From Runella rosea (GTDB taxonomy: Bacteria; Bacteroidota; Bacteroidia; Cytophagales; Spirosomataceae): a stretch of DNA of 64,000 nt. Within the stretch, counting starts at the first letter, position 1. Every line of letters starts with the position of its first letter. The position numbers and the translations under genes are program-made. Shown here in pieces: positions 11,675 through 63,633 of this stretch. The DNA lies in NCBI RefSeq assembly GCF_003325355.1, contig NZ_CP030850.1:6461001-6525000 (forward strand), given 5' to 3'. The notes below the pieces were generated by a model. The model was given only the letters and a program-made list of their open reading frames with translations, was not told where the DNA came from and made no database searches.

Positions 11675-12880
11675 ATGAAAAAGTATGTTGTATTTTTACT
11701 TCTGATGGCTGGTCTAGGAATGGTCTCTGGTGATTCCCTTGCCCAAACACTCCCTAAGAATCTTCTTATTTATTATGGGTACCCATCGCTTATCAACGGA
11801 GCGGCGGGCGACTTAATGGCGGCGAGCAATACTTTTATGCAATACCAATACGTAGTGCTAGGCGAGGGCTTGGAGCAATCAGGGCATGGAGACCATATCA
11901 ATACTAAGACCATCATCGCCAACATTAAAAGCAATGTAAAAGTATTTGGCTATATCTGGTTGGGAAGGCATATTGCTGGCAGGACTCCTTGGACCAATGC
12001 CGAGATACGTACCCATGTAGACCTCTGGAAAGCGATGGGCGTACAAGGCATTTTTTTAGATGACTACGGATACGCCCAAAATGTGACTCGTGCTAGGCAA
12101 GACAGTGCGGTGCGATATATTCATGCACAGGGTTTGAACGCTTTTGTCAACACGGGTGACATTGAGGAAGTGTTTGGCAGTACGATAAACCAGGTATATA
12201 ATCCGATTGGGATGGGATCCCCGGTGGATTATCGAGATTTTTACCTCTGGGAAAGTTACGTGGTTATCAATGGCCGTTTCTATGGTAAATACCTGACTTT
12301 TAGTGAATGGGAGTTCTGGCGTGTCAAATCAGAAAATCTACGAGCGTACCAAAATTCATTGGCGTTCAAAACGATGTCGATTACTACTCCCGATTTCAAC
12401 GGTACTTTCAACGCCAATCAATGGAACTTTACTTGGTATACGGCTTGGTTGCAGGGGCACGAGGCGACGGGTTGGGGGGAGGGGAATTATTCGGCAAGTG
12501 CGCCATCGGCCAATTTGGCTCCCTTCAGAGCGCGCCCTACGATAGCAAATCCTGGTACACAGTTTCTGACGGGGATTCAATCTACGGAAAATCAGTTTTT
12601 TAGATTGACTGATACGGGTAAGATATGGGCTGATACCACCTCCAAAACTGCGGGATTTATTCCGCCTGTTGTATGCCAGAGTACAGCTTCGGGTTTATGG
12701 AACAACGCCGCTATTTGGAGTTGTGGGCATGTGCCCTATCCTTATGATGATGTACTTATCAAAACACCACACATCATTGCGGTAACTCCTGCGCTGGGGA
12801 AGGTACAATGTCGAAAATTAGAGATTCAACGCGGGGCGGTATTTAATGGAATGGGGGTTTTTGAGGTTATAAATCGTTAA
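11675..12880 (+). CDS. Exported TIM-barrel protein, spherulin-4/GH114-like, with C-terminal strand module
   Basis: 401 residues from the ATG at 11675, which directly precedes a signal peptide (MKKYVVFLLLMAG, cut near SLAQ). Residues about 28-215 look like a TIM-barrel glycosidase of the spherulin-4/GH114 kind: LLIYYGYP, then VFGYIWLG, then GIFLDDYGYAQ with acidic residues at a likely strand end. A separate module begins near residue 336 (SGLWNNAAIWSCGHVPYPYDDVLI), the W-rich beta pattern common in Bacteroidota surface proteins. Activity and substrate are not evident. It lies 42 nt after recF and ends at a strong bidirectional terminator. Confidence 0.6.
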   Translation: MKKYVVFLLLMAGLGMVSGDSLAQTLPKNLLIYYGYPSLINGAAGDLMAASNTFMQYQYVVLGEGLEQSGHGDHINTKTIIANIKSNVKVFGYIWLGRHIAGRTPWTNAEIRTHVDLWKAMGVQGIFLDDYGYAQNVTRARQDSAVRYIHAQGLNAFVNTGDIEEVFGSTINQVYNPIGMGSPVDYRDFYLWESYVVINGRFYGKYLTFSEWEFWRVKSENLRAYQNSLAFKTMSITTPDFNGTFNANQWNFTWYTAWLQGHEATGWGEGNYSASAPSANLAPFRARPTIANPGTQFLTGIQSTENQFFRLTDTGKIWADTTSKTAGFIPPVVCQSTASGLWNNAAIWSCGHVPYPYDDVLIKTPHIIAVTPALGKVQCRKLEIQRGAVFNGMGVFEVINR

Positions 12881-58849: not shown

Positions 58850-59959
58850 CTATTTCGCCGAAGGTTTTATCCCATAACTGCGCAATTCGTCGCGTATTTT
58901 TTTTACCCAACTTGCCTGCATTCCTTGGTTGATTCCGTGGTTGGTTTCGTCATCGTATTGCTGCTGAAGCTGCGTATGAAGCCGAAAATATTCCAGATAT
59001 TGGTATTGAATCTCACTACTGAAGTCCTCGACAGAAAACGTCATGGTTTGTACTTTTCGCTTAAAGCGCTCTGCGGTGACGCGAGTTACGTCAAAATGAA
59101 GCTGTTCGTGGTCGAGAACGTAGTCGTTTTTAGAATCGGGCCGAACCCATGAGATGGTTTTGTCAATCCAAACTTTCGTCCGAACTCGTAGCTCTACGGT
59201 GCGATTTTTGACGGAGGAACGAGCCTCAAATCCGAAACTCGTAAATACCTGTGCTGCCCACCGATTAAACACACTGGGAGCACCCTGAAAATCCAACCAT
59301 GTAAGCGGCCGATTGGGGTTATAATACACCAGTGAGTCGGCTTTGGCGGGCGCTATAAGGCTATCATCTTCGATAATAACGGTGACACTTTTCGCAAAAA
59401 TATCGGAGACATTCACGCTTTGGGCGTACCATTTACTAAACCCCTTCAATTCATTTTCCAACAACCGCCTGATTTGGGGCTCAATGATATCTTCTGGCGG
59501 AACCCCGCTGCGGGTGTAGGTCGTGGTGGCATTGCCGCCAGTAAGAAAGACTCGTTTACCATCACGGTACGTTTCAAAGCTCAGATTCATTTTGATTTTC
59601 CCAGTCACTTTGGCGGGAGGGAGTAGGGTTTCTCTTACATGTAATTCTTTGATCACAAGGATAATAGGGGTTAGGGAGTCGGTGTTGGCGGGGTTGAAAT
59701 GCCGTCGCAACAACTTGTCGATGGAGGGAGCTACCCCTCCCTGGAGGACGGCGGTTAGGGGCTGTGGCTTACTCCAAACCGTTCCAATATTGGTAGTGAT
59801 GGGGCGGCTGTCAATGACTTCGACGATAAAAAAACCTTTGGGCTGTACGTTGAGCCGTTCGGATTTTAGGGTGATGGTTTGGGTCTGCGAGAAACACGGC
59901 GTTGGGAGGGTAGATTGCACGATAAAAAACAACAAAACCCATGCGAGACTACGCTGCAT
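58850..59959 (-). CDS. Exported DUF922 putative zinc protease
   Basis: 369 residues from the ATG at 59959 (MQRSLAWVLLFF), which opens a signal peptide; upstream in-frame ATGs at 59989 and 60031 are less likely. The C-terminal half matches DUF922: RPLTWLDFQGAP, then KVWIDKTISWVRPDS and the metal motif HEQLH at about 284-288 in VLDHEQLHFDVTR. This HExxH pattern predicts a zinc metallopeptidase of unknown target. The N-terminal half is a separate beta domain. Divergent from the dCMP deaminase gene. Confidence 0.8.
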   Translation of the reverse strand: MQRSLAWVLLFFIVQSTLPTPCFSQTQTITLKSERLNVQPKGFFIVEVIDSRPITTNIGTVWSKPQPLTAVLQGGVAPSIDKLLRRHFNPANTDSLTPIILVIKELHVRETLLPPAKVTGKIKMNLSFETYRDGKRVFLTGGNATTTYTRSGVPPEDIIEPQIRRLLENELKGFSKWYAQSVNVSDIFAKSVTVIIEDDSLIAPAKADSLVYYNPNRPLTWLDFQGAPSVFNRWAAQVFTSFGFEARSSVKNRTVELRVRTKVWIDKTISWVRPDSKNDYVLDHEQLHFDVTRVTAERFKRKVQTMTFSVEDFSSEIQYQYLEYFRLHTQLQQQYDDETNHGINQGMQASWVKKIRDELRSYGIKPSAK

Positions 59960-60030
59960 ACCTTTCTTATTTGTTACTTTGTCTTTCATTACGTACGAAT
60001 TACAACGAATACACGGCACTTTTAAACTCA

Positions 60031-60537
60031 ATGTTCAAGAAAATGCGTCCTGCTTTTGACGATATATTTATGGAATTGGCCCAAAATCTGGCGCGGCGAT
60101 CGCATTGCATCAAAGCGCAGGTAGGGTCTGTCCTCACCAAAGATACGCGGATTATTTCAATCGGTTATAATGGCCCGCCGTCGGGAACCCACAATTGTGA
60201 TGAAGAATTTCCTGGCGTCGGTTGTCCCCGAGACTCTAAAGGAAGTTGTTCTTTGGCCTTACATGCGGAGCAAAACGCCATTTTGTACGCCGTTAAAAAT
60301 GGCGCAAATCTGGAAGGAACCACTCTCTATGTAACACTTTCGCCTTGCATAGCCTGTGCCCGGGTAATTTTTACGATGAAAATCAAACGGGTTATTTATC
60401 TAAATTCTTATGCCGAATACAAAGGCATCGGTATTGATGAAGGGGTAGAATTTTTGCGCAAGTTTGGGGTGGAAGTAGATCGGTACATTCCGAAAGAGAA
60501 TGTTGAAAGCCAATTGTCTATTGACCATCTAAAATAA
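60031..60537 (+). CDS. dCMP deaminase family protein
   Basis: 168 residues from the ATG at 60031 (MFKKMRPAF); upstream codons in frame overlap the divergent gene. Zinc motifs: HAEQNAIL and SPCIACA (PCxxC). The insert THNCDEEFPGVGCPRDSKGS with extra Cys residues marks the dCMP deaminase/ComEB group. It deaminates dCMP to dUMP for thymidylate supply. acpH-like gene follows after 66 nt. Confidence 0.92.
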   Translation: MFKKMRPAFDDIFMELAQNLARRSHCIKAQVGSVLTKDTRIISIGYNGPPSGTHNCDEEFPGVGCPRDSKGSCSLALHAEQNAILYAVKNGANLEGTTLYVTLSPCIACARVIFTMKIKRVIYLNSYAEYKGIGIDEGVEFLRKFGVEVDRYIPKENVESQLSIDHLK

Positions 60538-60603
60538 CACTTTCTGCACTTTTTCTGACAAAACGACAAAACCCAATCGGTCATTCGTAATCGAACCTCG
60601 CCA

Positions 60604-61200
60604 ATGAACTACCTCGCCCATTTTTATTTGTCTTTTGAGCAGGAACCATTAATCATTGGCAATTTGCTGGGCGATTTTGCCCGTGGCCGCCTTGACCACC
60701 CGCGCAATGACCGATACAACGCCTCCATCAAGCAAGGCATTTTGTTGCATCGTCATATTGATTCATTTACTGATTCGCATCCGTCGGGCCATACCTGTCG
60801 TCAGGCATTGCCTGACTATTTTGGCAAATATAAAGGTGTGATTACGGATATGTATTTTGATTATTTTCTGGCAAAACACTTTGCGGATTATCATCATTTG
60901 CCCCTAAAACACTTTACGATGTACGTGTACGGGGTGTTGGAAAAGCACCGTTCGGTTTTGCCGCAAGAAGCTTTCGGGTTGGTAGATTCGATGATTAAGT
61001 ACGATTGGTTGTATAATTATCAGTTTCTGGAAGGTATGAATCGGTCGTTTGGTGGAATGTCGCGACGTTATCCGTTTTTGGCGGGGATTGAGCGGGCAGG
61101 AGCAGAGCTGTTTGAAAATGAAGCCCTCTATGAGCCATATTTTCGGGCATTTTTCCCTGATTTAATCAGCAGTTGCAAGGATTTTCTTTCGTACGATTAG
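60604..61200 (+). CDS. AcpH-like acyl-carrier-protein phosphodiesterase (DUF479)
   Basis: 198 residues. The start MNYLAHFYLSF, GNLLGDFARG, and LLHRHIDSFTDSHP with conserved His/Asp are family features (HD-like all-helical). AcpH removes phosphopantetheine from holo-ACP; many DUF479 members are untested. It is followed 26 nt later by the MOSC gene. Confidence 0.87.
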   Translation: MNYLAHFYLSFEQEPLIIGNLLGDFARGRLDHPRNDRYNASIKQGILLHRHIDSFTDSHPSGHTCRQALPDYFGKYKGVITDMYFDYFLAKHFADYHHLPLKHFTMYVYGVLEKHRSVLPQEAFGLVDSMIKYDWLYNYQFLEGMNRSFGGMSRRYPFLAGIERAGAELFENEALYEPYFRAFFPDLISSCKDFLSYD

Positions 61201-61226
61201 AGGTAATTTATCTAACTACTTGAACC

Positions 61227-61736
61227 ATGTTTAATGAACCTACTCCTTTAAAAGAACTGATGAGCCACTTTCCGCAGGCGGGAGAGGTGATTTGGATTGG
61301 ACTACGTACGGCTACGCGACAAGAGATTAAAATTGTGGAAGAAACCTACGCCCGTATTGGTACAGGCTTAGAAGGCGACCGCTACAAAGGTACTGCCGAT
61401 AGCAAACGTCAGGTGACGCTGATACAAGCCGAACATTTGGCGGCGGTAGGGTCGTATCTGGGGCGGGGAATCATTGATCCCGTATTGACACGACGCAATA
61501 TCGTAGTGCAAGGAATCAACCTATTGGCACTCAAAGACCATCGCATCCAGATTGGAGACGCTGTACTTGAGATGACTGGACTGTGCCATCCGTGCAGCCG
61601 CATGGAAGAAGTTTTGGGGCCTGGAGGCTACAACGCCATGCGCGGACACGGCGGTATCACTGCGCGCGTGGTGCAAGAAGGGGCTATTCGGTTAGGGGAT
61701 ACCGTGACGGTTTTAAAAACGGAGCAGAAGATTTAA
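61227..61736 (+). CDS. MOSC-domain protein
   Basis: 169 residues, a single MOSC domain. GDRYKGTADSKRQVTLIQAE, RRNIVVQGINLLAL and the conserved cysteine in GLCHPCSRMEE are typical. MOSC proteins bind molybdenum cofactor or carry sulfur; the donor and acceptor are not evident. Probably co-transcribed with the acpH-like gene. Confidence 0.9.
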   Translation: MFNEPTPLKELMSHFPQAGEVIWIGLRTATRQEIKIVEETYARIGTGLEGDRYKGTADSKRQVTLIQAEHLAAVGSYLGRGIIDPVLTRRNIVVQGINLLALKDHRIQIGDAVLEMTGLCHPCSRMEEVLGPGGYNAMRGHGGITARVVQEGAIRLGDTVTVLKTEQKI

Positions 61737-61821: not shown

Positions 61822-63633
61822 ATGGCAGACAATTTTGTAGTATCGGCTCGGAAATATCGCCCCGTTACGTTTGATACGGTGGTCGGACAGTCGCACATTA
61901 CCACTACCCTCAAAAATGCAATTCGTACCAATCACCTTGCACAGGCTTTTTTGTTTTGTGGCCCGCGTGGGGTGGGAAAAACGACCAATGCGCGTATTTT
62001 AGCCAAAACCATTAATTGTCAGAGTCTTACGGAGGATGTTGAGCCCTGCGGTGTGTGTGAATCTTGCGTGGCGTTTCAAAACAATGCCTCTTTTAACGTG
62101 CATGAATTGGATGCCGCTTCCAACAACTCCGTCGATGATATTCGAAATCTGATTGATCAGGTACGGTATCCGCCCCAAACGGGTAAGTACAAAATCTACA
62201 TCATTGACGAGGTTCATATGCTGTCTTCGGCGGCGTTCAATGCGTTTTTGAAGACGCTCGAAGAGCCACCGAGCTATGCCATCTTTATTCTAGCAACCAC
62301 GGAAAAACACAAGATTTTACCGACGATTTTGTCGCGTTGTCAAATTTTCGATTTTAACAGGATTCAACCGCGCGACATCGCCGACCATATTGAGCAAATT
62401 GCAAAGAAAGAAGGCATCAAAACCGAGCGCGAAGCCCTCGAACTCATTGCCCAAAAAGCCGACGGTGGACTGCGCGATGCGCTTTCGATGTTTGACCTTA
62501 ATGTGACTTTTTCGACCGACAATACGGTGCGTTATAAAGAGGTTCTCGAAAATCTTCACATTCTTGACTACGATTATTATTTCCGATTGACGGATGCACT
62601 TTTGACGGGAAACCTCTCGGAAACACTTTTGACATTTAACGAAGTTCTGAAAAAAGGTTTTGACGGACACTTGTTTGTGATTGGAATGTTAGAGCATTTT
62701 CGTAACCTGTTGGTATCAAAAGATGCTGCCACGGTACAGTTGCTCGAAGTGTCAGAAACCGCCAAGAACAAATACCTGGACCAATCAACGCGGGCGTCGC
62801 TTTCCTTCTTATTATCGGCTTTGAGCATTGGCGGTCAGTGCGATATAAACTACAAAGCGTCGAAGCAGCAACGGCTGCACGTAGAGCTGTGCCTCATGAA
62901 AATGGCCAAGCTTACCGAGGTGCTGGATTTGGAAGCCCTCGCGGCCGACGAAAAAAAAAAGCCTAACGTAGGGGCAGGTCCGGGCGGCGTACCGCTTGCG
63001 TCTGCTCAAAAAGGTAATAACGGTTCTTCGCCAAACGCGCTGGCAAATCCTGTAAATAGAACAGATGCCAATCCCGCATCCTCCTCGTCGTTGCCCACAA
63101 CGGCCGAGCCTACCATTACCTATCAAAATGCGCCTAATGGAAAAGGATTGCCGCTGGGAAAACTGCGCTCAACGGTCAATTTAAGTACATCCATTACCGA
63201 TACTCCCGCACCTACGCAGGTTTCCAAACCTGTCGAAGTAGCATTAGATGCCTTGCCAGAAAAAGACCTTCCCGTGACGATGGAGGCGCTGAAAGAAGTT
63301 TGGGCTGAATTTTCCCGAATGCGGGAACAAAACGGCGGTGCGGTGAGTGAGCAGATCATGCTTAACCGTGATTTTATCTTTGAGAATATGACCATTGAGT
63401 TGGTATTAGACAACCTGCATCAGGAAACCCTGCTCAATGAAATCAAACCGACCTTATTGGGTTATCTTCGTCGAAAGCTCCAAAACCGTCAGATTCAGCT
63501 TTCTCACCAAATTGCGCAAAGTGATGGAAAGCGCAACCCTTACACACCGCAGGAGAAATTCAACGTGCTCGCCGAGCGCAATCCCGCCCTCTTTGACTTG
63601 CAGCGGCTGCTAGGGTTGGAGGTTGATTTTTAG
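61822..63633 (+). CDS. dnaX: DNA polymerase III subunit gamma/tau
   Basis: 603 residues (tau). P-loop GPRGVGKT (47-54), zinc cysteines C66, C76, C79 and C82, Walker B DEVH (129-132), the SRC arginine-finger motif near 172, and a collar domain to about 370. A disordered Ser/Pro/Asn linker (380-490) leads to a C-terminal domain. At codons 377-380 lies a run of ten A; a one-base slip in either direction meets a stop at once, so a shorter gamma of about 381 residues is likely made too. Confidence 0.96.
   Translation: MADNFVVSARKYRPVTFDTVVGQSHITTTLKNAIRTNHLAQAFLFCGPRGVGKTTNARILAKTINCQSLTEDVEPCGVCESCVAFQNNASFNVHELDAASNNSVDDIRNLIDQVRYPPQTGKYKIYIIDEVHMLSSAAFNAFLKTLEEPPSYAIFILATTEKHKILPTILSRCQIFDFNRIQPRDIADHIEQIAKKEGIKTEREALELIAQKADGGLRDALSMFDLNVTFSTDNTVRYKEVLENLHILDYDYYFRLTDALLTGNLSETLLTFNEVLKKGFDGHLFVIGMLEHFRNLLVSKDAATVQLLEVSETAKNKYLDQSTRASLSFLLSALSIGGQCDINYKASKQQRLHVELCLMKMAKLTEVLDLEALAADEKKKPNVGAGPGGVPLASAQKGNNGSSPNALANPVNRTDANPASSSSLPTTAEPTITYQNAPNGKGLPLGKLRSTVNLSTSITDTPAPTQVSKPVEVALDALPEKDLPVTMEALKEVWAEFSRMREQNGGAVSEQIMLNRDFIFENMTIELVLDNLHQETLLNEIKPTLLGYLRRKLQNRQIQLSHQIAQSDGKRNPYTPQEKFNVLAERNPALFDLQRLLGLEVDF
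62950..62971 (+). promoter_or_regulatory. Candidate slippage site in dnaX (A10 run)
   Basis: Ten A (62951-62960) then GCCTAACGTAG. The zero frame reads GAA AAA AAA AAG CCT. In the -1 frame TAA (62964-62966) follows after GCC; in the +1 frame TAG lies at 62969-62971. The site contains A AAA AAG, the E. coli dnaX slippery heptamer, and is as long as runs known for transcriptional slippage in Thermus dnaX. A short GCGG/CCGC stem lies at 62984-62995. Confidence 0.7.

Follow-up and report, generated by a model that had tools for sequence, protein, structure and literature searches.

The dnaX gene of Runella rosea carries, just behind the part that encodes the clamp-loader collar, a run of ten adenines (A10) that we consider, with a probability of roughly three in four, to be a site of programmed slippage, where RNA polymerase would produce mRNAs of varying A number, so that the one gene would yield both the full-length tau protein and a short gamma form. 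The window analyzed is a stretch of 64,000 nucleotides of contig NZ_CP030850.1, and all coordinates refer to it. The following features, all on the + strand, are the ones on which the argument turns.

61822..63633, + strand: dnaX, encoding the clamp-loader tau subunit of 603 residues in one open reading frame (match to NF011531; Pfam AAA+ and collar domains)
62951..62960, + strand: A10 run, the proposed programmed slippage site (read from the sequence; kept in relatives)
62964..62966, + strand: TAA, stop of the −1 frame, reached by RNA with one extra A or by a ribosomal −1 shift, giving a predicted gamma of 381 residues (sequence; stop proximity compared with controls)
62969..62971, + strand: TAG, stop of the +1 frame, reached by RNA with one A fewer or two A more, giving a predicted gamma of 382 or 383 residues (sequence; stop proximity compared with controls)
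63259..63633, + strand: tau-specific C-terminal domain (last 125 residues plus stop), whose frame varies among relatives (matched in frame 0, −1, or +1 by an HMM built from single-ORF tails)

In the mechanism that we propose, RNA polymerase would slip at the A10 run and release dnaX mRNAs with mixed A counts. Those with ten A, or with ten plus or minus a multiple of three, would be translated into the 603-residue tau, and the remaining RNAs would stop at 62964–62966 or 62969–62971 and give a gamma of 381–383 residues that ends just past the collar. From comparison of the sequences we infer that such slippage takes place, mostly during transcription, and that the cell makes and benefits from both proteins.

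The identity of the gene is clear from its NF011531 score of 854.6 bits (cut-off 685), and the match to the Pfam collar domain PF12169 stops at residue 371. Codons 377–380 (62950–62961) read GAA AAA AAA AAG, followed by GCC TAA in the −1 frame and CTA ACG TAG in the +1 frame, and re-reading of the sequence bears out a preliminary description that had placed the A10 at these codons with a TAA in −1 and a TAG in +1. With one A gained, the product is predicted to end in E-K-K-K-A before TAA (381 residues); with one A lost it would end in E-K-K-S-L-T before TAG (382 residues), and two gained would give 383 residues, so that the predicted gamma ends about 10 residues beyond the PF12169 match. No zero-frame stop lies just behind the run in the window gene, which is a single ORF for 603 residues and hence not of the two-ORF type described below. 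Upstream on the same strand (59941–61736) are genes for a cytidine/deoxycytidylate deaminase-like protein (PF00383), an ACP phosphodiesterase (PF04336), and a MOSC-domain protein (PF03473).

Within its own genome of 7.16 Mb the run stands out by position. There are 19 runs of at least ten A (22 ten-A windows minus 3 extra that derive from A11 runs), and the one in dnaX is the only run among them with more than 100 codons of sense ORF on each side (376 and 227). The other 18 are at the start or near the end of a gene or outside long sense ORFs, except that L005 is a T run inside an opposite-strand ORF, 115 codons into its 445. Counted over the whole genome, windows of eight, nine, and ten A number 1724, 257, and 22, from which subtraction gives 1467 runs of at least eight, 235 of at least nine, and 19 of at least ten, a steep drop at ten. 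A likely start codon precedes three of the 19 runs (L007, L330, and perhaps L001). Of the 239 in-frame positions past residue 355 of the window protein, just 3 have the two shifted stops as near as they are at the A10. Nevertheless, the run in this gene alone is little proof, because synonymous sampling that fixes the amino acids and follows the codon usage of the gene gives a run of at least nine A in the region with a probability of 0.445; for the same reason, the balance of AAA and AAG in the window gene by itself was set aside as too weak an argument, and the case depends on the relatives.

We therefore compared dnaX across 297 genomes, made up of order-level and class-level samples and 80 named contigs and weighted to close relatives of the window organism, of which 293 remained after removal of four duplicates (identical over ∼800 nt); the loci are the better-scoring matches, a subset of all matches. 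With run length taken as the longest stretch of A no more than 100 codons from residue 355, a run of 9–13 A follows the collar in 250 of the 293 distinct genes. Ten is by far the commonest length (209 genes), followed by nine (23), eleven (16), twelve (1), and thirteen (1), and the longest run is shorter in 43. All 13 genomes examined from the genus, the present one included, have the A10 with identical codons, and at least nine A are found in 143 of 161 genomes examined from the order. The replacement of AAA by AAG in relatives, which the preliminary description had named as an observation that would count against slippage, did not occur. Among 182 single-ORF genes, 144 have at least nine A where synonymous sampling with each gene's own usage predicts 59.6, and the 209 exact A10 runs are spread over codon phases 0, 1, and 2 (24, 87, and 98 genes), which indicates that the DNA run is conserved rather than one peptide. 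In an additional 20 genomes at least nine A were present in 14 (8 of 8 from the class and 6 of the 12 from elsewhere in the phylum). According to the record names, carriers include Dyadobacter, Hymenobacter, Rufibacter, Pedobacter, Mucilaginibacter, Chitinophaga, Terrimonas, Aequorivita, and Aquimarina, a partial list; Dyadobacter belongs to the same family as the window organism. All eight contigs titled Bacteroidaceae, Bacteroides, Prevotellaceae, or Prevotella lack the run and have at most 3–5 A.

The shifted frames are closed much sooner than in other parts of the same linkers. In the 144 single-ORF genes with a run, the median distance to the stop is 1 codon in the −1 frame and 3 codons in the +1 frame, compared with 12 and 13 codons at 12,574 control positions. 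Both stops fall within 2 codons in 51 of the 144 (35%, versus 1.4% of controls) and within 4 codons in 96 (67%, versus 5.2%), and the earlier suggestion that the nearby stops reflect selection for a short product holds up on this evidence. The same holds for genes in which the tau frame lies elsewhere. In 95 genes with tau in the −1 frame, a set that still counts one doubtful case (N261), this frame is open for a median of 199 codons past the run, and the zero and third frames have both reached a stop within 4 codons in 73 of the genes and within 9 codons in 90; for the eight +1 genes, both other frames are without exception closed within 4 codons. The two closed frames thus end quickly whatever the arrangement, and the gamma ORF of the split genes has a median length of 379 codons from the aligned start. 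The comparison with relatives backs the existence of a short form besides the 603-residue tau, as the preliminary description had supposed, and gamma itself remains a predicted product.

The frame of the tau domain, assigned with an HMM built from the C-terminal 125 residues of the single-ORF genes, is 0 in 144, −1 in 94, and +1 in 8 of 246 scored genes with a run, numbers in which the two-ORF counts from outside the order are inflated by 13 of one set of 20 regions that were picked for a short open frame, the order-level regions having been taken in list order irrespective of frame. Four of the 250 genes were left out of these counts, namely G180, which has a stop just before the run, N261, whose zero frame is open, and two without a scorable tau domain. 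In 102 of the 246 genes, then, tau cannot be made without a shift, and 94 of these 102 are of the −1 type. On a FastTree phylogeny built from the N-terminal protein only, parsimony requires 38 changes of arrangement, compared with 81.8 on average and no fewer than 73 in 200 label shuffles. For the codon phase and for the presence of the run, the numbers of changes are 32 and 19. More than one arrangement occurs inside 16 disjoint clades (support of at least 90) and inside 13 of the 19 families that have two or more genomes. Family f69 has all three, and in family f57 the three are seen behind a common gatgcgg as A10-tgag (frame 0), A11-tga (+1), and A10-ga-tgag (−1). Some close relatives differ by one A: G161 (A10, frame 0) and G210 (A11, +1) share 99.7% identity as far as the collar end, and G374 (A10, frame 0) and G394 (A9, −1) have matching flanks; in a third pair (G067 with A10, G134 with A9) the flank has also changed further.

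Given that every register and every codon phase is served and the length is held at ten, slippage of RNA polymerase is the best explanation that we can offer, and two readings that dispense with it altogether fare poorly. The run could merely result from a lysine-rich linker in a genome rich in AAA, with tau as the only product and the nearby stops due to chance, and the synonymous null of 0.445 for the window gene speaks for this. We regard this as very improbable, as it does not account for exactly ten A across three codon phases, for the excess of close stops over controls, or for the 102 genes that make no tau at all unless shifted. Slightly less credible still is the view that the registers are assembly errors or the result of replication slippage in the DNA (phase variation) rather than programmed slippage in RNA. 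Homopolymers are indeed error-prone, A9, A10, and A11 occur among near relatives, and register cases known from a single genome, such as G210, may be assembly errors. However, the arrangements are inherited in clades, as the 38 changes against at least 73 in shuffled data attest, and whole families are of the −1 type (13 of 13 in f18 and 12 of 12 in f19); assembly error cannot explain clades of this kind. Moreover, the zero frame of the split genes is closed within a few codons, as predicted by selection for a short product.

The more serious alternative, although we still judge it unlikely, is that gamma is made by ribosomal −1 frameshifting on the A_AAA_AAG at the 3′ end of the run, helped by the extra A residues and stimulated by a hairpin downstream.

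62972..63007, + strand: possible hairpin, separated from the run by 11 nt, a candidate stimulator of ribosomal shifting whose meaning is uncertain (minimum free energy −20.9, z −2.06)

The window run does end in an A_AAA_AAG that is in frame and has a −1 stop at the second codon after it, the arrangement of the E. coli-type heptamer, and the only tRNA-Lys seen has the anticodon UUU (30 of 41 tRNA matches were examined as loci); a CUU tRNA-Lys was not seen in these 30 loci, the other 11 matches lying outside them and 3 of the 11 appearing as neighbors. With heptamer and tRNA as in E. coli, ribosomes could slip too, and they may have a share in the slippage of this organism. Among the shifted arrangements the −1 register also predominates strongly (94 of the 102 split genes), and the +1 register, found in just 8 of 246 genes, is to this extent a counterpoint to the transcriptional reading. 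On the other hand, seven A and a G would be enough for the ribosome, yet ten are conserved, and none of GGAG, GAGG, or AGGA is present at −18 to −6 of the window run, which thus lacks a Shine-Dalgarno (SD)-like stimulator. Among the 250 genes with a run, an SD-like motif lies 6–18 nt before the run in 22, close to the background of 6%, but measured from the last seven A it is found in 68, above background. The hairpin is also predicted in G002, G003, and G012 (z −0.90, −2.27, and −3.00) and thus in 4 of 13 genomes of the genus, and it is altered or missing in the other nine. Two of the genus genomes (G001 and G004) have a different fold behind the run (z −3.62 and −2.38), so that z is below −2 in 5 of the 13, the window included, with two unrelated hairpins. 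A conserved RNA structure as a general stimulator found no support, the mean z behind the run being −0.57 in 145 single-ORF genes (G180 is taken in here, as it is in the SD-motif counts), −0.23 in 95 −1 genes, and −1.34 in eight +1 genes, compared with −0.30 in 145 control stretches. Finally, the +1 register is unreadable by a −1 ribosomal shift and a pool of RNAs with mixed A counts serves all registers, which counts for slippage in transcription. The relatives, as far as their sequences tell, favor transcriptional over ribosomal slippage, a choice between two routes that the preliminary description did not make.

Genes that lack the run offer what resemble true cassettes of the E. coli type. 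In 9 of the 43 genes without at least nine A, an SD-like motif precedes a slippery heptamer near the collar. Eight of these have a −1 stop within 3 codons (G013, G017, G021, G024, G143, G159, G179, and G203), and the ninth, G202, is inverted: the stop is in its zero frame and tau lies in −1, so that its tau would need a ribosomal shift. In two further genes, G040 and N291, heptamer and stop are present but the SD-like motif is absent; it is likewise absent from G030, where the −1 stop comes five codons after an A_AAA_AAG. Strong folds lie behind the heptamer in G143 (z −6.25), G021 (−3.79), and G202 (−2.58), and the other six range from −0.76 to 1.32. Seven of the cassettes correspond to examined loci (L026 = G013, L027 = G017, L037 = G024, L046 = G021, L087 = G143, L112 = G159, and L125 = G202), and the heptamers of these seven are A_AAA_AAG, G_GGA_AAG, or A_AAA_AAA. 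The SD-like motif is present in 9 of 11 cassette genes versus 22 of 250 genes with a run, a difference for which Fisher's test gives 7e-8, a value that is too small since the nine cassette genes represent four groups of relatives; the cassette set was, moreover, defined post hoc, after inspection of the data. We read the loss of the run in the nine genes as an exchange of transcriptional slippage for a putative ribosomal one.

In E. coli, gamma is made from dnaX by a ribosomal −1 frameshift at A_AAA_AAG. The window gene is similar in its in-frame A_AAA_AAG, in the −1 stop two codons on, and in a predicted gamma that ends behind the collar, and it differs in the missing SD-like motif upstream, in a hairpin confined to 4 of 13 genus genomes, and in three A beyond need. 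The parallel for the reading favored here is Thermus thermophilus, for which two sources describe transcriptional slippage on A9 in a gene with one tau ORF and stops nearby in both other frames, gamma being expected from RNAs with the wrong A count (PMC5009743, PMC1088944). The window gene likewise has tau in one ORF, a sense-strand run of at least nine A, and close stops in both other frames; unlike that described for Thermus, it has ten A rather than nine, a run just behind the collar, and relatives in three registers, and slippage, demonstrated in Thermus, is here deduced from sequence. Antonov et al. 2013 reported two-ORF dnaX genes, 17 in number and nine of them with ten A, for which transcription slippage was proposed, a non-conserved direction of the shift being taken as its sign, and chelatase cassettes in E. 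coli are given as shifting 63, 40, and 10% with 11, 9, and 7 A (PMC3711429). The window gene shares the long A run with these genes, but they need a −1 shift for tau, whereas the window gene makes tau in frame and would make gamma via the shift. Slippage in Thermus and the 17 two-ORF genes are thus already known. The +1 register, the flips of register, and the swap to ribosomal cassettes were not found in the portion of Antonov et al. consulted (PMC3711429; its supplementary species list lies outside this comparison), and we found no report of three registers or of swaps to ribosomal cassettes in the literature searched.

Taken more broadly, the registers lead us to lean, with somewhat better than even confidence, to a model of register-neutral slippage. 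Polymerase would supply all three frames, the DNA frame behind the run would drift freely, and there would be no fixed frame past the collar across the phylum; selection would act solely to keep ten A and two closed frames, and a ribosomal cassette like that of E. coli could take the place of the device. The importance of the short gamma form was disputed even for E. coli, according to the part of a review that we consulted (PMC5009743). If many lineages keep a two-form device, shift its frame repeatedly, and have a ribosomal cassette in place of a lost run, then the production of both forms would itself be under selection. The pairs of close relatives that are one A apart make the register idea directly testable, and two-ORF dnaX genes may be mis-annotated as broken or truncated.

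Two minor observations may be added. Two genomes of one genus outside the class (L384 = G609 and L385 = G668) both have A10 in dnaX; in one of the pair the zero frame is closed after 5 codons and the −1 frame is open, in the other the zero frame is open, and the tau HMM gives no score in either. Glutamate in the two codons before the run (62944–62949 in the window, and their counterparts in relatives) over-uses GAG with respect to each gene's own usage, with 65 of 100 observed against 35.7 expected at codon −2 and 31 of 59 against 21.1 at −1; at −3 the figures are 9 of 27 and 10.1. An SD-like motif found no support as the cause, since the preference holds regardless of whether the next codon starts with G, and it is alike in single-ORF and −1 genes.
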